Of a DNA stretch of 38,141 nucleotides, positions 776 through 10,799 are shown piece by piece. Source of the stretch: Bacteroidales bacterium (lineage in GTDB: Bacteria; Bacteroidota; Bacteroidia; Bacteroidales; Muribaculaceae). The notes beneath the pieces are model-generated. The model did not search any database. It had not been told where the DNA came from and saw only the letters and a list, made by a program, of their open reading frames with translations. A program made the position numbers and the translations under genes. The stretch covers positions 1-38,141 of the forward strand of contig JAUNGA010000017.1 of the NCBI GenBank assembly GCA_030524765.1, read 5' to 3'. Numbering within the stretch: the stretch's first letter is position 1; each line of letters starts with the position of its first letter.

Positions 776-808
776 TTTGTTTTTTGCACCGCGTTTGCTG
801 TATCTTTG
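776..808 (+). promoter_or_regulatory. Promoter of the zinc-ribbon/kinase/AAA+ operon
   Basis: A Bacteroidetes-type promoter: TTTG at 776-779, a 21-nt spacer, then TATCTTTG at 801-808, matching TAnnTTTG. Transcription would begin near 812, about 16 nt before the ATG at 828. This promoter excludes the longer in-frame reading from 768, because the -7 element would lie inside it. Confidence 0.8.
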
Positions 809-827
809 TGTAATTGCTATCACACAC

Positions 828-1889
828 ATGGAAAAAGATTTACGCTTACAACAACGTCTGCGGCAACAGGTGCGGCAGACAGCCGCACAGGATGCCGACA
901 CACATCATTGCCACAACTGTGGCGCTCCGGTCGAGGCGGGGGCGCGTTTTTGCGGCGAATGTGGCGCTCCGCAGGGTGGGGGCCACTGTGTGTCGTGCGG
1001 CGCCGAGATCGACGCCGGCCTGGCGATATGCCCCGTATGCGGCCATCCGGCCACGACACGATGCACGTTCTGCGGCTCGGAGATGAGTGCCGGCGAGCGT
1101 TTCTGCCCCGAATGCGGCAACCCGCGCGGCGGCATCGTGTGTCCGCGATGCAACACGCTCAACTATCGCAGCTTCTGCCGTGCGTGCAATCATCCGCTCA
1201 ACCGGATGGCGCTCGACGCTGTCGCCCGTGCGAAGGCCGACCCGCGCTACATACGCGCAAGCGCCATAGCCGAGGAGCTGCAGGATCTCGAAGACGAGAT
1301 CGAGCAGCTGCAGGCCCTGATCGCCCGTGAAACCGGCGACGCCGCCGGCGGTGTGCTCGACACATCGGTCGAGGTGAGCGACGAGACGCGCCGTCTGCTC
1401 GACGAGTTTGAGCGTCTGTCGCAACGCGGGCCCCGCCGCAGCACGCCGCCCGTGCAACCCGAGGTCAAGGCCGACACGACCCGCAAACCGCTGCAGCTCG
1501 GCATCGACGACGCCCCGCGGCCGGCCGGAGCCGATGCCGCCACACCACAGCCGCGCCGACAGTTCAGCGATGCAACGGCCCGGCTCGAGCAGCTCAGAGA
1601 GCAGTATGGCCGTCGGCTTGACGAATTCCGCCGCGAGGTCGACGCGATGATACCCGACCCGGCTCTGCCCCCCGAGATACGGCGCAACGAGGCATGCGCA
1701 CACATGATCATCACCAGGTCAAAGACCACCCGTGTCGAGAAGACCCGTGTCGGCTGGGTGTGCAACCGCTGCCATATATTCCATAATAATCCGAGCGAAT
1801 GCGGCGTGGCTGAGTTCGGCGGAAAATGGATAACCAAAGAATTTACGGTCGAGACAGAGACTATATCGACCGGCACGGTAAATCTTTGA
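828..1889 (+). CDS. Four-zinc-ribbon coiled-coil protein, first gene of the signalling operon
   Basis: A 353-residue cytoplasmic protein of unknown function. Residues 28-120 hold sixteen cysteines as eight CxxC knuckles (28/31, 42/45, 54/57, 68/71, 79/82, 93/96, 105/108, 117/120), enough for four zinc ribbons of the double-zinc-ribbon (DZANK) type. Two charged helical segments follow (about 137-165 and 265-290), probably coiled coils, separated by a Pro/Thr-rich linker. Near the C-terminus, WVCNRCHIFHNN and a third cysteine suggest another metal site. No catalytic motif is visible, so it is more likely a scaffold or adaptor. It lies 45 nt before the kinase gene. The start at 828 is set by the promoter; an in-frame start at 768 would precede the transcription start. 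Confidence 0.8.
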   Translation: MEKDLRLQQRLRQQVRQTAAQDADTHHCHNCGAPVEAGARFCGECGAPQGGGHCVSCGAEIDAGLAICPVCGHPATTRCTFCGSEMSAGERFCPECGNPRGGIVCPRCNTLNYRSFCRACNHPLNRMALDAVARAKADPRYIRASAIAEELQDLEDEIEQLQALIARETGDAAGGVLDTSVEVSDETRRLLDEFERLSQRGPRRSTPPVQPEVKADTTRKPLQLGIDDAPRPAGADAATPQPRRQFSDATARLEQLREQYGRRLDEFRREVDAMIPDPALPPEIRRNEACAHMIITRSKTTRVEKTRVGWVCNRCHIFHNNPSECGVAEFGGKWITKEFTVETETISTGTVNL

Positions 1890-1934
1890 TCGTGCTCATA
1901 TAAATAAACCACACTGCAAAAATATTCTCTTACG

Positions 1935-4900
1935 ATGGAAAGAAAAGACACAGGCACACAGATACCTCCCCCGGCCGACACCGGCACGAAAGTGCCCTCT
2001 CAGCCGGGCACCGGCACGGCTGTCCCGCCCCCGTCAGGTACCGGCACAGCGGTCGCGCCCCCGTCAGGCGGCACCGGCACTGGTGTGCCTCAGGCCGGCG
2101 CGGCCGGTCAGCCGCGTGTAGGCTCGCTATCTATGATTCCCGAATATCCCGAGTATGTGATAAATGGCCGCCGCTATACGGTGTGCAAGGCCGAGACCGC
2201 ACGCACGCTGTCGAAAAACTCGGGCGAATCAAAAATTTTTGTTGTCGAGAACGGCGGCAACAAGTTTGTCATCAAACTGTATATACCGGGACACTCGCCC
2301 AATCATGACATTCTCGACGAGGTGCAGCGCGCCGGTGGCGGATTCATGATCAATCTGCGCGACCACGGCCGCTGGGCCGACCCGTCGCATCCCGGTCTGA
2401 TGCTCGACTACGAGATCATGGACTATGCCCCCTATGGCTCGCTGGCCGACATGCGTTTCGGCGGCGACGAGCGGTTGCTGCGCGATGTGGCATGGCGCAT
2501 GGCATTCTGCATCAAGCAGTGCCACGACCATCACATACTGCACCGTGATGTCAAGCCCGAAAACTTCCTCTTTATCGATAGCGACCGCAAACAGTTTGTG
2601 ATCAGCGATTTCGGCATCGCACGCAGCCTGTCGGGCAAAGGCCCCGTAAAAGTCGACACGGCCAAATCAAGCTATTTTGTGTCGCCCGAGGGCTCGATGA
2701 GCTCAAAAGACCGCACCACATATGTCGACTGCCCTACCGACTACTACTCGATGGGCATGACGCTGCTGGCCCTGTGGGTCGGCCTCGACAACTTCTACAA
2801 TCTCTTCCCTTACGACAATCTCGAGGAACTCGACCGTCTGAAACTCAACAACAAGGTCATCTCAGAGCTGGGCGACATGCTGCGTATGACCGACTATACC
2901 CGTTCGCTGCTCGAGCGTCTGCTCGAGGCCGGCGATCAGAACCGTGCCGGATTCGACGAGATCAAGCGATGGTATGAGGGCGAGACGCTCAAGACCGGCG
3001 CGGCAGCCGAGGCGGCCGCCTCGAAGAGCGCCTTCCACGTGGTCTTCGACGAGACCAAAGGCAAGGTGGCACGGTCGCGCGAGGAACTCGCCGCCATGAT
3101 GATGGCCGACATCGAGTTTGCAAAATCGTTTATATACCGTGGCATGGCCAAGAACGCGCTGCAGGCGTCATTCCCGCGTCTTGCCGCCGAGATCGACGAC
3201 ATACCCCAGCGGCTCTATCCGCGTCCCGACGAGCAGTCGACCGGTGTATATGCCGCTTGCCTGGTGCTCGACGAGTCGATGGCTTTTATCGACCGCAAGG
3301 GACACAGCCACTCTACCGCCCGGGATATTGCCGCCGCCCTGTGGGCCGACCGCACATACTATGCCGTCGAACTCAAGAAGAAAGCCTCGTGGCTGTGGGC
3401 GTTCCTGAGCCTGCGCGGCGGCAAGTTGCGCGACGAGGTCGACAGCCTGCAGGCCGTCTGCGCGCGCAGCGGCATGCATGGCCTGTATGCCCTGTGCCGG
3501 CGTCTCGACCCGACGATGGGGCTCGACGACTCCAAAGGCCGCCCGCTCAAAGATCATGCCGCCCTGGCCGGCATGCTGTGGGGCGGCAAGGGCACTTATG
3601 CGCTCGAGCTCGCCAACCCCGACCACAGCGTGTGGGTGCACCTGCGTGGCGACGGCTCGAAAGACGGCCCTACGCTGGCCCGCACATATCCCGAACGCAT
3701 ACGCAAACAGGGCGAAGCGGCTCTGTATGCCCTGTGCCTCGAGCTCGACCCGCAGATGCCCTACTACGGCAAAAGCGCCAACGCATGCAAGACCGAGAAG
3801 GAAGTCGCCGACGAGCTGTGGGCACATTTCGACAAATACTGCAAAGAACTGTCTGACCCGCAGCACCTGCTGTGGCAATACATGCGCACCTGGAACGCCT
3901 CGTGGCGCAAGGTGGCCGACAGCTATCCCTCGCTGATCGCATCGCGTGGCGACGAGCACACATTCGACCTCATCTACCGTCTCGACAACACAAAGCCGTT
4001 CACGGTGCAGTATATCAGCGACAAGAAGTGGCATTCGGTCACGTGCTTTGACGATATCTGCGAGGCGATCTCAAAGCATGGCCTGACGCCTTTCTCGCTC
4101 GAGACCATGACACGCCGCCACTTTATCACATGGCTCACCGTGAGCCGCCGCGACGAAGACCGCAAGCGCGGCGTGATGCTCGACGACATGGTCAAGCGTG
4201 CCGGTTCGGCGGCCAAAGACCGCGCATGGTATTTCATTTACACACTCGTGCCCGACAGGGGGCTCCTGTTTGAGCAGCCCGGCAGTGGCATACAGTCAAA
4301 GACGGCCTCAGAGATCGGCTATTGCATCAATGCCGAGCTCAACGGGCAGAGCAAGTGGAATGTCAGTCTGGTCGATATGCTCAAGTCTGACGTGCTGCGT
4401 TCGTCGCGTCTGGCTCAGTATCTCGAGGCCCGCAAAATGTCAAATTATGTCGACGGTATAGCCAAGATACTTGACATACAGTCAAATATCAATGCCCACA
4501 AGTCGGCACCCTACGATCTGGCGATCGCACAATGGAAGGTGGTGGCCTACATGGGCTGGTGTCCGACCTACTTTTTCCCGCGCAGCCGCAAGCACGCCGA
4601 CTCGGTGACCGCGGTGTCTGCCATGCCTCTCGCCGAGCGCAACGAGCAGGCCGACAAGGGACTGACGGCATTCCTCACCACATTATTCCATGAGCGTAAA
4701 GGCCGGCCGTTCACATTCGACAAGCTCGCCGAGTATTACGACTGGCTCAAGGTCAACGTGCCCGGCTGTCAGCCCGTCAAACGTGCGGCCGCGGTCGAGC
4801 AGCGCAACAGCGCGGCCATCAGAGACCGCGACAAGGCATGGCGCTCGCTGCGGCGCACACGCCTGTGGGTGATGCTGCTGTGTCTGCTGCCGATGTTGTT

Positions 4901-5792
4901 CATAGTCGCCTGTCTGGTGGGTATGGCATTCTCAGACGGCAAGGTGATACTCGAGCAGGCATTCGTGAGCATAGGCACCGTACTCGCCGTGATTATATGC
5001 GTGATCGCCGCGCTCGGCGGTCTGGCCGAGGGCGGCCTGATAGGTGGCGTCGTGGCCGGTCTGCTGGGCTACTGGATACCGTTCTGGCTGTTCAAATGGC
5101 TCAGTCCGGCGGCTCCGTGGCTGTTGTCGGCCCTCATGCTCGGTTCGGCGGCATACTTCGCCTACAGGCTCAACAAAAAGACAACCGACCGCTATATACG
5201 CAACCGCCAGGCCTACAAGACTCTGGTCGACCAGGCACGCATGGATGTCGTGTGCACCGCATTCGGCACCAAGAGCCGCACATTCGGCTCGGCGTCTGTA
5301 AGCCCCGAATCATCGTTTAACGGCAGCCGCGACGTTGCCAGGAGCTGTCGCAAAAACGTGCGCAAGGCCGCGATCGGCATGATAGTCGTGACACTGGTCT
5401 CGATAGCCATAGGTGTCGTGCTCGCCGATAAGGTGAGATCTATCGAGACCGACGGATACGGGACTACGGCCGCAGCTGTGCTCGCCTCTGACGTCGCGGG
5501 CGATTACTCGGGCACGTTCCACGGCCGCGATGCCACCATGACTGTCACAAGAATGTCCGGCGGTCTCTACGGCGAATTCGAGGGCTCGGTCAAGATCATG
5601 TATTCGACGCCAATGACCCAGCAGGTCACGGGCCGGTATAACGACGGCACACTCGAGCTCAGCGTCAAAGGCAACCCGTCGGCATCATATACCGGACGTC
5701 TCGACCGTGTCGACGGCACTGTCACCTATGACGGCACATATACCAATCGCGCGAAGGGCACTTCGCACACATTCAGTTTCAAGAAAATATGA
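1935..5792 (+). CDS. Membrane Ser/Thr protein kinase with internal ~80-residue repeats
   Basis: A 1285-residue Hanks-type kinase. Residues 6-53 are a low-complexity tail of TGT-x-VPPPSG repeats. The kinase domain spans about 70-345, with ATP-binding Lys114 in FVIK, catalytic loop HRDVKPEN (Asp205, Lys207, Asn210), DFG at 225-227, SPEG in place of APE near 251, and DYYSMG after it. The glycine loop is weak (KNSGES). Catalytic residues are intact, so activity is expected. Residues about 400-850 form tandem repeats of roughly 80 residues that I cannot assign to a family. Hydrophobic segments at about 976-998, 1010-1027, 1033-1053, 1059-1077 and 1145-1164 are membrane spans. An approximately 100-residue beta-rich domain follows and may lie outside the cytoplasm. 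The stop overlaps the AAA+ gene start by 4 nt (ATGA). Confidence 0.92.
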   Translation: MERKDTGTQIPPPADTGTKVPSQPGTGTAVPPPSGTGTAVAPPSGGTGTGVPQAGAAGQPRVGSLSMIPEYPEYVINGRRYTVCKAETARTLSKNSGESKIFVVENGGNKFVIKLYIPGHSPNHDILDEVQRAGGGFMINLRDHGRWADPSHPGLMLDYEIMDYAPYGSLADMRFGGDERLLRDVAWRMAFCIKQCHDHHILHRDVKPENFLFIDSDRKQFVISDFGIARSLSGKGPVKVDTAKSSYFVSPEGSMSSKDRTTYVDCPTDYYSMGMTLLALWVGLDNFYNLFPYDNLEELDRLKLNNKVISELGDMLRMTDYTRSLLERLLEAGDQNRAGFDEIKRWYEGETLKTGAAAEAAASKSAFHVVFDETKGKVARSREELAAMMMADIEFAKSFIYRGMAKNALQASFPRLAAEIDDIPQRLYPRPDEQSTGVYAACLVLDESMAFIDRKGHSHSTARDIAAALWADRTYYAVELKKKASWLWAFLSLRGGKLRDEVDSLQAVCARSGMHGLYALCRRLDPTMGLDDSKGRPLKDHAALAGMLWGGKGTYALELANPDHSVWVHLRGDGSKDGPTLARTYPERIRKQGEAALYALCLELDPQMPYYGKSANACKTEKEVADELWAHFDKYCKELSDPQHLLWQYMRTWNASWRKVADSYPSLIASRGDEHTFDLIYRLDNTKPFTVQYISDKKWHSVTCFDDICEAISKHGLTPFSLETMTRRHFITWLTVSRRDEDRKRGVMLDDMVKRAGSAAKDRAWYFIYTLVPDRGLLFEQPGSGIQSKTASEIGYCINAELNGQSKWNVSLVDMLKSDVLRSSRLAQYLEARKMSNYVDGIAKILDIQSNINAHKSAPYDLAIAQWKVVAYMGWCPTYFFPRSRKHADSVTAVSAMPLAERNEQADKGLTAFLTTLFHERKGRPFTFDKLAEYYDWLKVNVPGCQPVKRAAAVEQRNSAAIRDRDKAWRSLRRTRLWVMLLCLLPMLFIVACLVGMAFSDGKVILEQAFVSIGTVLAVIICVIAALGGLAEGGLIGGVVAGLLGYWIPFWLFKWLSPAAPWLLSALMLGSAAYFAYRLNKKTTDRYIRNRQAYKTLVDQARMDVVCTAFGTKSRTFGSASVSPESSFNGSRDVARSCRKNVRKAAIGMIVVTLVSIAIGVVLADKVRSIETDGYGTTAAAVLASDVAGDYSGTFHGRDATMTVTRMSGGLYGEFEGSVKIMYSTPMTQQVTGRYNDGTLELSVKGNPSASYTGRLDRVDGTVTYDGTYTNRAKGTSHTFSFKKI
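1953..2091 (+). repeat. Coding tandem repeat in the kinase N-terminal tail
   Basis: Imperfect direct repeats of about 30 bp built on ACCGGCAC...GCCCCCGTCAGG. They encode five variants of a decapeptide with the pattern TGT-x-V-PPPSG. The units differ at third positions and keep the reading frame, so they are maintained as protein sequence. The tail is rich in Thr and Pro, has no predicted fold, and directly precedes the kinase domain. Confidence 0.75.
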
Positions 5793-8700
5793 AATGTCAG
5801 AAATGCGGGCACGACAACCGTGCCATAGCCAGATACTGCAAATGGTGCGGTCAGGCGCTGGCGGCTGCCGCCGGCGCCGCCAAGAGTGATGACCGGGCGT
5901 CGGTGCTCGACCGTATGGTGGGCAAGGACAGCGTGGCCGACACGATACGCCGTGTGCTTACGAGCGCGTCAAACATTGCCGCGCAGGGCCGCAACGGCGG
6001 TGTCGATATGCGCCTCGACATGTGTTTTGCCATAACCGGCGCGACAGGCGTGGGCAAAAACTTCGTCGCCGATGTGATAGCGGCCGCTCTGCACGAGACC
6101 GGCATAATCGCCAGACCTACCCCCCATGTGGTGAAATCGATCGATTTCAAAAGCTTTGCCGACAAACTGCGCGACAACGTGAAACCGATCGGCGGAAATG
6201 TGCTCGTCATCGACGATGCCCACACCCATTGCCCCTCTGAGCGGGCCGACACGATCTGCGAGCTCGATCGCATACTGCAGTATTGTGCCGAGTGGGGGCC
6301 CGACCCCGACCGCCCCGTGGTGGTGTTTGTCGGCGACGATGATCTGCTTAAATTCTTTGAGAACAATGCTTCGGCACGCGCACGCATCAAAGAGATGATA
6401 CGTGTGCCGGCGCCCACGATCGAAGACCTCACCGAGATCTGTTGCCGACGGCTCGAGCGTGAGTACGGCCGTCAGGTGCAGCCCGAGGCCCGGGCCAAGA
6501 TCTCGCGTGTCATCACTGCAGCCAAGCGCGACAATGTCGACCGGTTCACATATGGCCACTATGCCGTTGACCTGGCCTATCGCATATACCTCAATTTCTG
6601 CGCCGTGCCCGGGGCTGTCGACATCACTCCCGATATGGTGCAGGGACGCGAGTGGGTGCCCAAGACTTTCGACGACGTCATGCGCGAGTTCGACAGATAT
6701 GTCGGCGTCGACGACATCAAGGAGGCCATACGCAACATTGCCCTTACGGTCGACGAGGCACGCAGGCGGGGCGGCGACTCGGCTGCCTGCGGATCGGTGC
6801 AGAGCCACTTCCTGTTTATCGGCAATCCGGGCACGGGCAAGACCACTATGGCACGCCTCTTTGCCGAGGCCCTCAACGCCATGGGTGCTCTGCCCAGCGG
6901 ACATCTTGTAGAGGTCGACCGCGGGAAACTTGTGTCGCAATACGTCGGCGAGACGCCCAAACTGGTGCGCAAGGCTGTCAACGAGGCGATGGGCGGTGTG
7001 CTGTTTATCGACGAGGCCTACCAGCTGTGGCAGGGCAAAAACGATCACGACGGCGAACAGGCGATCACGACTCTGCTGGCCGATTGCGAGAACCTGCGTG
7101 GCAAATTCGTGTGTCTCATGGCCGGATATCCGGTCGAGATGCAACGCCTGATGGGAGCGAATGCCGGCCTGGCACGACGATTCAACAAGACAATCGAATT
7201 CCGCGACTACACGGGCCCCGAGCTGACCCGGATATTCCGCAACATGGCCGCCGCATCTGACACCGGGGTAAAGCTCGGCGACGATGTCGAGGCTCAGATA
7301 GGCTCGTTCTTCGACAAGATGTATGCCAAGCGCGGTTCGCGCTTCGGTAATGCCGGCACTGTGCGCAATGTGCTCGAGGAAGCCCTCGGCCGCATGCGTG
7401 TGCGTGTCGACCGTGCACGTGCGGCCGGATCGCTCGTGCCGGGCACCGAGCATACGCTCATAATGGCCGATCTGCACGACAACGGCGGCGGAAAAGCTGT
7501 TGACGACATCCTCGCTACTTTTGACGACCTGGTGGGAATGTCTGACGTAAAGCGCCAGATCGAGACAATCGCCAAACGTGTGCGCCTCAATCAGCGACGC
7601 CTCGAGTCGGGACGCGGCAAGGCTCAGGTCGAGAATTTCCACATTGTCATAACCGGTAATCCCGGCACGGGCAAGACCACTGTGGCCAAGCGTCTCGGAC
7701 AGGTGTTCAAGGCCATAGGTGTGCTGCCGACCGACAAGGTCATTGTCAAGAAAAAAGAAGACCTGCTCGACCAGTATGCCAATTCGGCCGGCATAAACAT
7801 GCGACAGGCCGTCGAAGACGCCATGGGAGGCATCCTGTTTATCGACGAGGCATACACGCTGCTGCCCACAGGCACGCCGGGCACGGTCAATCAAGACGGT
7901 GCCGAGGCCGTGCAGGCTCTGATGACGTGCATGAGCGAACGTGAGGGACAGTTCATCACGGTCATGGCCGGATACAAGAGCGAGATGGACGAGTTTATAC
8001 GTAACGCCAACGACGGTCTGGCTCGCCGGTTCACGCACAGCATACACATCGACGACTATTCGGCCGAAGATCTCTTTAAGATTTACATGCAGCAGGCCGA
8101 GCGTGGCGGGTTCTCGCTCACCGAGGCCGCAAAAGAAAAGCTGCGGCTCAAGATCGAGGAGATGGTGACGGTCAAGGACGAGAAATTCGGCAACGCCGGC
8201 ACGATGATAAAACTCTTTGAGCAGACCACCGACCGACAGGCCGACCGTGTCGACCCCGACGCCGACGATGACGCGCTGTTCACCATCGAGGCCGACGACA
8301 TTCCGTATGACGCTCCGAAGAAACTCGATGTCGACCAGATAATGGCCCGGCTCGACCATCTGACCGGTCTGCAGTCGGTCAAAAACGCCGTGCATGACCT
8401 TGCCGACCGGCTCACCATCGAGATGGCCAGGACGGCCCCGTCGGGCCAGAAACCTCAGGTCAATCTGAGCCACTATCTCTTCCTTGGCAATCCGGGTACA
8501 GGCAAGACTACCGTGGCACGCATCATGGGCGACATTTTCTATTCGCTGGGCCTGCTGCCGTCTAACAAGGTCATCGAGCTGTCGGCAAAAGACCTTAAGT
8601 CAGAGTTCATGGGACAGACCTCGCCCAAGGCACACGCGGCTATGATGCGTGGAATGGGCGGCGTGGTATTTATCGACGAGGCATACAGTATCACCGAGGG

Positions 8701-9145
8701 TGACGGTCAGGGCGGTTACGGCAAAGAGGCCGTAGCCGAGATATTGCAGGTGATGGAGAACTATCGCAACCGTTTTATCACCATCGCAGCTGGATATCCG
8801 CGCGAGATGCAGCAGTTTCTCGACTCGAACTCGGGTCTGCAGTCGCGGTTTGCAAAACCGATCATGTTTGACGACTATTCGGCCGAAGAATTGTCGACGA
8901 TCGCTCTCGGCATGTTTGAGAAACGCAATCTGTCTCTCACGCAGGTGGCACGTGATGCCATGCTGCGTCACTTTACGCGCCTGGTGAATGCCCGCAGTAA
9001 AAATTTTGCGAATGCACGCGAGGCTCGCAATTATGTCGACGAGGTACTGCTCAACCAGGGACGACGTCTGCGCGAGGAGAGCGCACGGCCGGGATTCGAC
9101 AACGACCGGCTGTATGTGATCGAGGCCTCTGATATGAATGTTTAA
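5789..9145 (+). CDS. Zinc-ribbon protein with four tandem AAA+ modules (three CbbX/SpoVK-like)
   Basis: An 1118-residue cytoplasmic ATPase. An N-terminal zinc ribbon uses C3, C6, C17 and C20. Four P-loop modules follow at regular spacing. Module 1 has GATGVGKN at 84-91 and a Walker B ending IDDAH near 145. Modules 2, 3 and 4 have the CbbX-type Walker A GNPGTGKTT (near 345, 623 and 900) and Walker B FIDEAY (near 406, 684 and 961). Each of these three also has the family's (L/Q)xRF ... DY(S/T)xxEL region. CbbX, SpoVK and EccA relatives are ring-forming remodelling ATPases; three such modules in one chain is long for the family. Module 1 is divergent and may not hydrolyse ATP. Translation is coupled to the kinase by ATGA, and the FHA gene follows after 11 nt. 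Confidence 0.93.
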   Translation: MKCQKCGHDNRAIARYCKWCGQALAAAAGAAKSDDRASVLDRMVGKDSVADTIRRVLTSASNIAAQGRNGGVDMRLDMCFAITGATGVGKNFVADVIAAALHETGIIARPTPHVVKSIDFKSFADKLRDNVKPIGGNVLVIDDAHTHCPSERADTICELDRILQYCAEWGPDPDRPVVVFVGDDDLLKFFENNASARARIKEMIRVPAPTIEDLTEICCRRLEREYGRQVQPEARAKISRVITAAKRDNVDRFTYGHYAVDLAYRIYLNFCAVPGAVDITPDMVQGREWVPKTFDDVMREFDRYVGVDDIKEAIRNIALTVDEARRRGGDSAACGSVQSHFLFIGNPGTGKTTMARLFAEALNAMGALPSGHLVEVDRGKLVSQYVGETPKLVRKAVNEAMGGVLFIDEAYQLWQGKNDHDGEQAITTLLADCENLRGKFVCLMAGYPVEMQRLMGANAGLARRFNKTIEFRDYTGPELTRIFRNMAAASDTGVKLGDDVEAQIGSFFDKMYAKRGSRFGNAGTVRNVLEEALGRMRVRVDRARAAGSLVPGTEHTLIMADLHDNGGGKAVDDILATFDDLVGMSDVKRQIETIAKRVRLNQRRLESGRGKAQVENFHIVITGNPGTGKTTVAKRLGQVFKAIGVLPTDKVIVKKKEDLLDQYANSAGINMRQAVEDAMGGILFIDEAYTLLPTGTPGTVNQDGAEAVQALMTCMSEREGQFITVMAGYKSEMDEFIRNANDGLARRFTHSIHIDDYSAEDLFKIYMQQAERGGFSLTEAAKEKLRLKIEEMVTVKDEKFGNAGTMIKLFEQTTDRQADRVDPDADDDALFTIEADDIPYDAPKKLDVDQIMARLDHLTGLQSVKNAVHDLADRLTIEMARTAPSGQKPQVNLSHYLFLGNPGTGKTTVARIMGDIFYSLGLLPSNKVIELSAKDLKSEFMGQTSPKAHAAMMRGMGGVVFIDEAYSITEGDGQGGYGKEAVAEILQVMENYRNRFITIAAGYPREMQQFLDSNSGLQSRFAKPIMFDDYSAEELSTIALGMFEKRNLSLTQVARDAMLRHFTRLVNARSKNFANAREARNYVDEVLLNQGRRLREESARPGFDNDRLYVIEASDMNV

Positions 9146-9156
9146 GCGAGAATTCA

Positions 9157-9678
9157 ATGGATAGCAAGATACAATGCCCCTCGTGCGGGGCCGATATAGA
9201 CGGCGACAGCCGATTCTGCGACCAATGCGGTATCGAACTCATGGTGTGCCCGTCGTGCCGCAGCGTGTGCAAGAGCAAATTCTGCTCGAAATGCGGTAAA
9301 CCGAGTGTTAAGGCCTCGGAACTCACCGACGTGAGCGTCCCCGCCGGCCCTGCCGGTGGCCCGGCTCCGGTCGGGCAGCCAAAACCTGCCGGGCAGCTGC
9401 AGGCGATCACATGTGCGGCGATGGGAGTGAGACTGCCGTTGCGTGCCGGTGCGGTGATAGGACGTGTCAACGGCGACTACAAAGACCTGCTTGCGCGTTT
9501 TGATTACATATCGGGCACGCATGCGCGTCTTGACTGCAACGGAGGCGAATGGACCATCACTGATCTTGGCTCGCGCAACGGTACGGCCGTAAACGGTGTG
9601 CCATGCTCGGGTGCGGTGCCTCTGCACAAAGGCGATGTCGTGCGTTTTGCAAGATTCTATGACTTTATGGTAGAGTGA
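9157..9678 (+). CDS. Zinc-ribbon/FHA phosphothreonine-binding protein
   Basis: A 173-residue protein. Residues 7-46 contain CxxC pairs (7/10, 21/24, 31/34, 43/46), giving two zinc ribbons. A Gly/Pro/Ala-rich linker follows, then an FHA domain at about 85-173 with Gly102-Arg103, SGTH at 119-122 and NGT at 141-143. These are the residues FHA domains use to hold phosphothreonine peptides. It is probably the reader of marks placed by the kinase two genes upstream. It has no catalytic domain and no signal peptide. It lies 11 nt after the AAA+ gene and 2 nt before the phosphatase, clearly in the same operon. Confidence 0.92.
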   Translation: MDSKIQCPSCGADIDGDSRFCDQCGIELMVCPSCRSVCKSKFCSKCGKPSVKASELTDVSVPAGPAGGPAPVGQPKPAGQLQAITCAAMGVRLPLRAGAVIGRVNGDYKDLLARFDYISGTHARLDCNGGEWTITDLGSRNGTAVNGVPCSGAVPLHKGDVVRFARFYDFMVE

Positions 9679-9680
9679 CT

Positions 9681-10799
9681 ATGAAGATACGTTACGAATC
9701 AATCAGCGATGTTGGTCGCGAGCGGTCAAACAACGAAGATATGGCTCTGGTTTTCGGCGCGTTTATACGCGACGACGCACAGAGCAGCATGGTGCCGATG
9801 CAGAGCCGGCCGCGCTTCACCGCTCTCGTGGCCGACGGCATGGGCGGCTATGGCGGGGGTGAGATCGCTTCGGCTATGGTGCTGGCCTCTTTCAACGAAT
9901 TTCTGGCAGATCTGCCCGACGGTCTGTCACCGCGCGAGACTGCACGCGCCGTGAGAGAATGGCTGCGCGGCATACAGCAGGCCGTGCTCGACAAGGCGTC
10001 GGCCGACCGCGAGCTCGCCAACATGGGCACGACACTCACCGGAATATTTACCTACGGCCAATCTGATTTCATGATCAATGCCGGCGATAGCCGTGTGTAC
10101 CGATGGCGATATGACACATTGCGCCGGCTGACGGTCGACCATTCCGAACGCGAGCGCACCGGCGATCCTCTTGTGCCGTCAAATCTCATCTATAATGCGA
10201 TAGGTGTGCCGGGCGCGTTCATTGATGTCATCTGCCTGACCGACGAGATGCCGATGATCGACGGCGACGTTTATGTGATATGTTCCGACGGCCTTTGCGA
10301 CATGATCGATGACGACACGATCGCGTCGATACTCGCTTCGGGCGGTGGGGCACGCGGGCTGGTCGATGCGGCTCTCGATGCCGGTGGCCGCGACAACTGC
10401 ACCGTTATCGTGCTTTACGTATCCATGCCTGACAACGGAGTTGCGGAGTCGCTTAGCCATGATATCGGTGAGGGTACGACGGCCGAACTTGAACCAGAAC
10501 CAGAGCCTGAACCTGAAGTCGAAAAAACTGTCGAGACCGTTGACAGCCGCGTCGACCTGGCGCCGGCACAGGGCGGGTTCGAGATCGACGAGCCGGTCAG
10601 TGATGAGCCCGGGCCCCCGGCTTTCATCGGTTTTGATGATTCCGTGCCATCACCTGCACCTCAGATAAAGGTTATCGGCGAGGATGTGGCCGTAGACCGC
10701 AGCGATGCCGACAGTGTACAGCCCGCCGCCGAGCGTGCCCGGCAAGCGGCCGGTCTTGTCAGAGAGGCATGGAACATATTGTTCGGTAAAAAGAAATAA
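9681..10799 (+). CDS. PP2C-family Ser/Thr phosphatase
   Basis: A 372-residue metal-dependent phosphatase, expected to reverse the kinase in this operon. The PP2C core spans about 1-250: RSNNED with Asp20, ADGMGG with Asp52 and Gly53, NMGTTLT, NAGDSRVY, CSDGLCDM with Asp203, and GGRDNC with Asp238. All metal ligands are present. A roughly 120-residue acidic tail follows, starting with an EP repeat near 270 and ending in a basic helix. I chose the ATG at 9681, two bases after the FHA stop; a GTG at 9675 would add two residues and overlap that stop. The operon ends 8 nt from a convergent gene, with no terminator hairpin visible between them. Confidence 0.93.
   Translation: MKIRYESISDVGRERSNNEDMALVFGAFIRDDAQSSMVPMQSRPRFTALVADGMGGYGGGEIASAMVLASFNEFLADLPDGLSPRETARAVREWLRGIQQAVLDKASADRELANMGTTLTGIFTYGQSDFMINAGDSRVYRWRYDTLRRLTVDHSERERTGDPLVPSNLIYNAIGVPGAFIDVICLTDEMPMIDGDVYVICSDGLCDMIDDDTIASILASGGGARGLVDAALDAGGRDNCTVIVLYVSMPDNGVAESLSHDIGEGTTAELEPEPEPEPEVEKTVETVDSRVDLAPAQGGFEIDEPVSDEPGPPAFIGFDDSVPSPAPQIKVIGEDVAVDRSDADSVQPAAERARQAAGLVREAWNILFGKKK

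Follow-up and report, generated by a model that had tools for sequence, protein, structure and literature searches.

A contig of 38,141 nucleotides from a Bacteroidales bacterium of the Muribaculaceae (GenBank assembly GCA_030524765.1, contig JAUNGA010000017.1), called the window here in its whole length, carries five + strand genes between positions 828 and 10799. They encode, in this order, a zinc-ribbon protein (Zn4), a membrane Ser/Thr kinase (PK), an AAA+ ATPase (AAA), a protein with zinc ribbons and an FHA domain (FHA) and a PP2C phosphatase. The genome comprises 2.36 Mb in 127 contigs and is 91% complete. A first-pass annotation made from the sequence alone had described five packed genes with gaps of 45, -4, 11 and 2 nucleotides (nts), and both the open reading frames (ORFs) and the spacing were borne out. 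The features are as follows.

776..808, + strand: promoter motif of the Bacteroidetes type, TTTG-N21-TAnnTTTG (pattern match)
828..1889, + strand: Zn4, with four zinc ribbons, a middle region, a C-terminal CxxCxxxH..C site and a GGxW motif; marker protein of the system
1935..5792, + strand: PK, membrane Ser/Thr kinase of 1285 aa
1935..2156, + strand: N-terminal threonine array of PK, TGTxxPPP-like units; candidate phosphothreonine docking tail
2157..2969, + strand: kinase domain of PK, with HRDVKPEN, DFG and SPE
2970..4853, + strand: middle region of PK, family-specific, without a Pfam match
4854..5423, + strand: transmembrane block of PK, 4 segments scored (hydropathy)
5424..5789, + strand: C-terminal domain of PK, probably periplasmic
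5789..9145, + strand: AAA, with an N-terminal zinc ribbon, an irregular N-terminal AAA module and three AAA+ modules of the CbbX/SpoVK type
9157..9678, + strand: FHA, with a double zinc ribbon and an FHA domain (residues G102-R103, S119, H122 and N141)
9681..10799, + strand: PP2C phosphatase with an acidic C-terminal extension

The start of Zn4 was placed at ATG 828, the ORF called by the program beginning earlier, at GTG 768; for PP2C, an alternative start at GTG 9675 is possible. The first-pass annotation had one promoter driving all five genes. The motif at 776-808 is present, being one of 5 matches in the window to the pattern TTTG-N17..23-TAnnTTTG, of which 0.16 were expected, and it is the spacing of the genes that suggests a single transcript.

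Domains were assigned with Pfam and NCBIfam, the AAA families being the best 25 of 67, and the matches supported the predicted make-up of zinc ribbons, kinase, AAA+, FHA and PP2C. The zinc ribbons of Zn4 were matched, and its description as a four-ribbon protein is refined by the additional CxxCxxxH...C site near the C-terminus, which is invariant in 34 rows. PK matched Pkinase (1.3e-19) and has the catalytic HRD, DFG and SPE motifs of Hanks-type kinases. In AAA, three stretches each of PF00004 and AAA_lid_6 were found together with an N-terminal AAA_16/Torsin-like stretch, and the summed score exceeded the cut-offs that the SpoVK, EccA and CbbX models set for whole proteins. Its Walker A, Walker B and AAA_lid_6 modules are those of the CbbX/SpoVK family of AAA+ proteins. 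The likeness to CbbX noted at first was borne out by comparison with solved structures, among which the modules are closest to CbbX (3e-48) and EccA1 (9lur, 2e-40); they qualify as EccA-like (type VII secretion) as well, with CbbX closer. The count of four AAA+ modules stands only if the N-terminal one, whose Walker A is irregular among homologues, is included as the fourth, and the protein is shorter or longer in some homologues. FHA has a zinc ribbon and an FHA domain (1.9e-14) that carries all the pocket residues (Gly-Arg, Ser, His and Asn), and PP2C matched PF13672 (1.3e-7) and the Stp1-type model (4e-38, under that model's cut-off).

Distribution, gene order and co-inheritance

Among 61 relatives, the window genome counted, the PK family was recognized beyond the kinase domain in 9; 25 matched at E 0.001, those outside the 9 as other kinases. 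Of the loci of these relatives, five have the complete gene set in the order of the window, L034 holds the last four and is cut ahead of Zn4, and L036 and L041 are likewise truncated. In 393 genomes sampled evenly from the order, the Zn4 profile matched 5 over its full length and 8 in the ribbons only. The reciprocal profile, built on the post-kinase region of PK, matched 6 of the 393, namely the same 5 and G048, where the contig edge retains the end of a Zn4 frame (45 bits). In the phylum, 7 of 395 genomes matched, and the 5 outside the class gave four full operons and one cut. Scanned with the Zn4 profile, a collection of 84,980 species yielded 75 loci from 144 stretches, all from Bacteroidales or other Bacteroidota; because the scan patterns were derived from members within the order, absence beyond the order is not established. 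An earlier scan of the same collection with the kinase alone found no locus. Several of the 75 loci (L handles) lie in genomes that also bear a G handle, and carriers include the cultured species Bacteroides cellulosilyticus, B. stercorirosoris, B. timonensis and Segatella copri.

When runs of one family were counted once, the full five-gene order was found in 57 of the 75 loci. Nine end at contig ends (5 as Zn4-PK, 4 as Zn4-PK-AAA), one is permuted (L099), and eight read Zn4-PK-AAA-FHA (L064, L077, L085, L117, L118, L119, L120 and L125). Among the eight, L064 is at a contig end, about 0.9 kb is left in L077 and L118, and L085, L117, L119, L120 and L125 extend 2.4-4.6 kb past FHA with PP2C not called. 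Distance matrices of all ten protein pairs correlated at 0.46-0.74 in 62 loci, compared with permutation maxima of at most 0.20. The five genes are a real, conserved and co-inherited unit. The kinase, FHA, PP2C and AAA+ genes had been taken for such a coherent unit in the first-pass annotation, which named rare co-occurrence of the homologues as what would speak against it; the neighbourhood search did not find them rarely together.

The proteins vary within this unit. AAA has 1090-1150 aa in 46 of the 75 loci and 780-900 aa in 19; of the remainder, one is longer, four are of other lengths (L090 with 931 aa, three cut by contig ends) and five loci are without AAA. L136 (3615-7760), L171, L172 and L174 encode AAA proteins that, at about 1380-1390 aa, exceed the one in the window; that of L136 has four PF00004 stretches. 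L117-L120 have an additional AAA gene upstream of Zn4. In the FHA pocket, G102, R103 and S119 are present in 69 of 69 domains, H122 in 68 and N141 in 60; differences in pocket residues between tail classes were seen, confounded with clade. In L117 the FHA protein is fused to Sel1 repeats. A strict HRD pattern was found in 33 of 75 kinase ORFs, and the 42 that fail mostly have HKD or HCD with DFG. The kinase domains of L117-L120 and L125 are divergent (HAD/HGD, DYD/DFD), and the tails of these kinases are acidic, for example DEPTPMD.

Hydropathy of 78 kinase ORFs gave five membrane segments in 41, four in 25, including the window, and other numbers in 12. Past these segments lies a small domain, which in L059 is a bacterial SH3 domain (SH3_3) at the C-terminal end; in the kinase of L034 (15364-19638) an FKBP-type prolyl isomerase domain stands in this position. 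The C-terminal domain of PK is thus placed as the probable outside (periplasmic), sensing end of the kinase.

Threonine arrays and a proposed phosphorylation switch

In most members, short threonine units are repeated in tandem ahead of the kinase domain. The units are TGTxxPPP-like in the window and GTGTAIPS, SGTAVAP, DKTLRP, GGTIRPGSG, QKTAVAP or SDTA/SNTG in other lineages; outside the class the unit is DKT[IV]R. The tail set comprised 82 sequences, a second kinase and a sequence with a wrong start having been dropped from 84, and 3-mers were scored as repeated when they occurred at least 3 times and covered at least 9 residues. Such repeats were found in 71 of the 82 tails, compared with a mean of 10.7 and a maximum of 17 in 200 shuffles, and 66 tails had at least 3 Thr within them. 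The other 16 include arrays that are too short or varied to reach the threshold, the Ser-unit tail of L090 and the weak tails of L131, L136 and L061. Threonine makes up 10.7% of 77 tails (two later-dropped tails included) versus 5.2% of the sequence after the kinase domain.

In many loci the linker ahead of the FHA domain holds the unit of the cognate kinase. Units shared by tail and linker are, for example, DKTVRPG in L078, GGTSIAG in L066 and the Ser unit AGSSLKP in L090. The match was tested in 69 of the 71 loci with an FHA protein, L086 being dropped for its tail and L130 for its linker. Cognate pairs of tail and linker scored 17.6 versus 13.7 in permuted pairs (sd 0.54), a value reached in none of 5000 permutations, and the cognate linker ranked best of all for 12 of the 69 loci (1.8 expected). 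With the other proteins as controls, the observed value was reached in 132 of 2000 permutations for Zn4, a weak excess, in 1267 of 2000 for AAA and in 585 of 2000 for PP2C. The cognate match is significant for the FHA linker and not for Zn4, AAA or PP2C. It holds when each 70% AAA cluster is represented by a single locus (45 loci; 0 of 10000 permutations), and likewise for 50% clusters (13 loci; 79 of 10000).

Gene content, order and co-inheritance, the active-site motifs, the threonine arrays and the matching motifs are observed. From them we judge it somewhat probable that the operon is a switch that is anchored in the membrane and controls an AAA+ machine through threonine phosphorylation. 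In the scheme that we infer, which covers phosphorylation, docking, the zinc-ribbon contacts, the ATPase as the output and the cue, PK would span the inner membrane with its kinase domain, threonine array and middle region inside and the small variable periplasmic domain as probable sensor. Once active, PK would phosphorylate its N-terminal array on the threonines; in many lineages it would do the same to the matching site in the FHA-protein linker. The FHA protein would dock on the array through its phosphothreonine pocket, several copies simultaneously, and its zinc ribbons, together with the Zn4 scaffold, would recruit the multi-module CbbX/SpoVK-like ATPase, an actuator that may remodel a target complex; PP2C would erase the marks. 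A phosphothreonine site just before the FHA domain could lead to self-docking, as in GarA/OdhI, or to FHA assembly, as in Fha of the type VI secretion system (T6SS).

Several observations weigh against this scheme. The cognate linker was no better than that of the nearest relative (31 better, 33 worse, 5 ties), and the match signal is therefore at the level of clades, lying between them. A score of at least 24 was obtained for only 21 of 69 cognate pairs and for 5.9% of non-cognate pairs. The linker of the window's own FHA protein is without the motif (score 7), so that the earlier proposal of FHA recruitment by phosphothreonine agrees with the arrays and with many linkers but not with this one. 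N141 of the pocket is altered in 9 of 69 domains, and the tail of L090 is built of Ser units, while FHA domains prefer phosphothreonine. Seven loci have DNA past FHA without a called PP2C, and five of them have divergent kinases; in these five (L117-L120 and L125) the combination fits coupled loss, which may be one or two events. In the four-segment kinases (25 of 78, the window's too) the C-terminus would, by the number of segments, lie inside. The FHA protein, lastly, is tied to the ATPase only by adjacency and common zinc ribbons. The first-pass suggestions that it steers the ATPase, that the kinase senses an envelope or cytoplasmic cue and that the zinc ribbons provide a common docking surface are putative.

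The threonine array might also be a mere flexible spacer of low complexity that resembles the FHA linker because the two are alike in composition. In many loci the FHA linkers are rich in Pro, Ala and Gln, tandem arrays mutate fast, and the negative result with the nearest neighbour is what this explanation expects. Against it, threonine is doubled although the units change completely, matching is strong for the FHA protein only, and in L090, where the tail consists of Ser units, the FHA linker carries that very unit. We consider a mere spacer improbable.

More tentatively, and with less than even confidence, we propose that kinases with their own multivalent phosphothreonine array and a zinc-ribbon/FHA adaptor, often carrying the same lineage-specific motif, together gate a multi-module CbbX-type AAA+ protein in an undescribed class of Bacteroidota systems. 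The units of each lineage could then be private phospho-codes that insulate parallel systems, possibly with clustering of FHA and kinase at the membrane. Thanks to the tandem arrays, peptides allow a direct test of this wiring, and the match between array and linker would provide a natural library of kinase-motif-reader combinations.

Neighbouring genes and mobility

In the window, the upstream neighbour is an ORF at 222-722 on the same strand, 105 nts ahead of Zn4 and a peroxiredoxin by eye, and the downstream neighbour is on the opposite strand. At 24 loci of the same genus that hold the cation-efflux gene flanking the operon, the flanking peroxiredoxin gene was not found nearby, save a weak match in L159 (23% identity), and insertion at the window site is for this reason not shown. 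Flanking families were counted in the 75 loci, one representative being scanned per cluster. One is a family of proteins some 245 aa long that match nothing in Pfam (21 loci). Among the clusters present in at least 5 loci, the sole housekeeping one is an mnmG-like gene by eye (5 loci, on the other strand).

Four further families bear on the possibility that the operon is a biological-conflict (defence-type) system, in which the phospho-switch senses attack and releases the effector action of the AAA+ protein or of accessory neighbours. This is compatible with the threonine-phosphorylation switch and differs from it in output. The four, each with its number of loci and the share of its genes that lie no more than 1.5 kb from the core, are DUF4062+STAND-like NTPase (9 loci; 9 of 9), M48 peptidase (9 loci; 6 of 9), TerB/Sel1 (10 loci; 9 of 11) and DUF1963 (7 loci; 3 of 7). 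Presence is patchy, which would fit such a system, the PK family being found in the 9 relatives and 6 order genomes given above, and outside the class SUKH/SMI1-like ORFs, by eye, stand within or after the operon (L173:4665-5198, L174:9288-10082 and L171:10445-10966). Against this, genes on the opposite strand flank the core on both sides in 8 of 75 loci, so the five genes can stand alone, and the DUF4062+STAND-like gene is found in two arrangements only, downstream in L101, L107, L110, L111 and L114 and upstream in L117-L120. No nuclease or toxin domain is listed in the core, for AAA among the best 25 of 67 matches. None of the full proteins matched a defence family, PADLOC giving domain-level similarity of kinase and AAA only. 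We regard defence as less likely than not.

Carriage by mobile elements was also sought. A tblastn search of plasmids with the kinase gave 6 records matching in the kinase domain only, and neither a tblastn search of phage records with Zn4 nor a Zn4 scan of viral contigs gave a relative, which also speaks against a conflict system. In L074 (Segatella copri) a C10 peptidase/Spi inhibitor gene stands downstream of the core and its relative upstream. A second kinase/FHA/PP2C cluster shares its genome with the operon (L004, C94:30001-44657) and encodes a kinase of 437 aa, an FHA-like protein of 519 aa, a secreted protein, a PP2C of 523 aa, an FHA-like protein of 204 aa and kinases of 1224 and 441 aa, the FHA-like proteins being named by eye; kinase/PP2C clusters are also present in L042 and L043 of the same genus.

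Comparison with known systems

No paper with this gene set was found in the titles and abstracts of the open-licence PMC literature, in agreement with the first-pass view of an undescribed system. Several known systems share parts of it.

CbbX, SpoVK and EccA resemble AAA in module sequence and AAA_lid_6; unlike them, AAA has several modules per chain and a zinc ribbon and is encoded in a kinase operon. The FHA profile matches GarA and OdhI, which have no zinc ribbon and whose target is a metabolic enzyme. Their phosphothreonine site is just N-terminal of their own FHA domain, and a candidate site is so placed in many homologues here, though not in the window. A metabolic or envelope-homeostasis switch of the GarA kind could be built from these parts, the FHA protein binding an enzyme that the CbbX-like ATPase reactivates or remodels, as CbbX does with Rubisco. 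The closeness of the modules to CbbX and EccA1 among solved structures, the GarA and OdhI matches and the position of the matched site are consistent with it. However, no metabolic enzyme was found among the flanking clusters present in at least 5 of the 75 loci, and to our knowledge no Rubisco is expected; we hold such a switch to be rather unlikely. Autoinhibition in these FHA regulators is treated in PMC9769921.

Zinc finger and FHA domain are also combined in ArnA of Sulfolobus, which with the vWA protein ArnB forms an archaellum repressor module (PMC6509490); unlike this module, the operon has no vWA family listed for its five proteins (Pfam/NCBIfam; AAA among the best 25 of 67). The closest paper found is that of Kaur et al. 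(2020; PMC7159879) on NTP-dependent conflict systems, in which zinc ribbons, a kinase together with PP2C, and AAA+ parts also occur. In its accessible text these systems are centred on vWA/MoxR and GTPases, one with kinase, PP2C and vWA, and in that text CbbX and SpoVK have 0 occurrences.

Control of a machine by kinase, FHA protein and PP2C is best known from the T6SS, and a vWA protein (TerY) with kinase and PP2C defines the TerY-P triad. The operon could be imagined as a regulatory arm of either in degenerate surroundings. Its trio of membrane kinase, FHA protein and PP2C is that of the T6SS pathway, with the logic of PpkA/Fha/PppA (excerpts of PMC3953482 and PMC12607579). However, TssC/VipB (PF05943), the only T6SS family sought, was found genome-wide in 0 of 14 carriers and 0 of the 12 that are at least 90% complete, its fit to the Bacteroidetes-type T6SS not having been checked, and TerD was found in 1 of 14, not the window's genome. 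The vWA protein of the triad has no counterpart among the families listed for the five proteins (for AAA, the best 25 of 67). The first-pass statement that no T6SS or ter gene is present thus stands for TssC in the carriers and for TerD in the window genome, one other carrier having TerD; a T6SS or ter context is unsupported genome-wide. As AAA is moreover of the CbbX/SpoVK type and not ClpV, this origin is largely contradicted and very improbable.

The likeness to the PpkA-Fha-PppA/ClpV pathway is nevertheless close: a membrane Ser/Thr kinase, an FHA protein with a phosphothreonine pocket, a PP2C eraser and an AAA+ machine. In the T6SS, Fha binds phosphothreonine (PMC3953482, in part), and PpkA and Fha form condensates (PMC12607579, in part). 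Unlike that pathway, the operon has a CbbX/SpoVK-type AAA+ protein in place of ClpV, and zinc-ribbon proteins and the threonine arrays of the kinase are added. The switch may work like PpkA-Fha-PppA, without being shown as a member of that pathway, and a different AAA+ motor appears here to be under the same control by kinase, FHA protein and PP2C.

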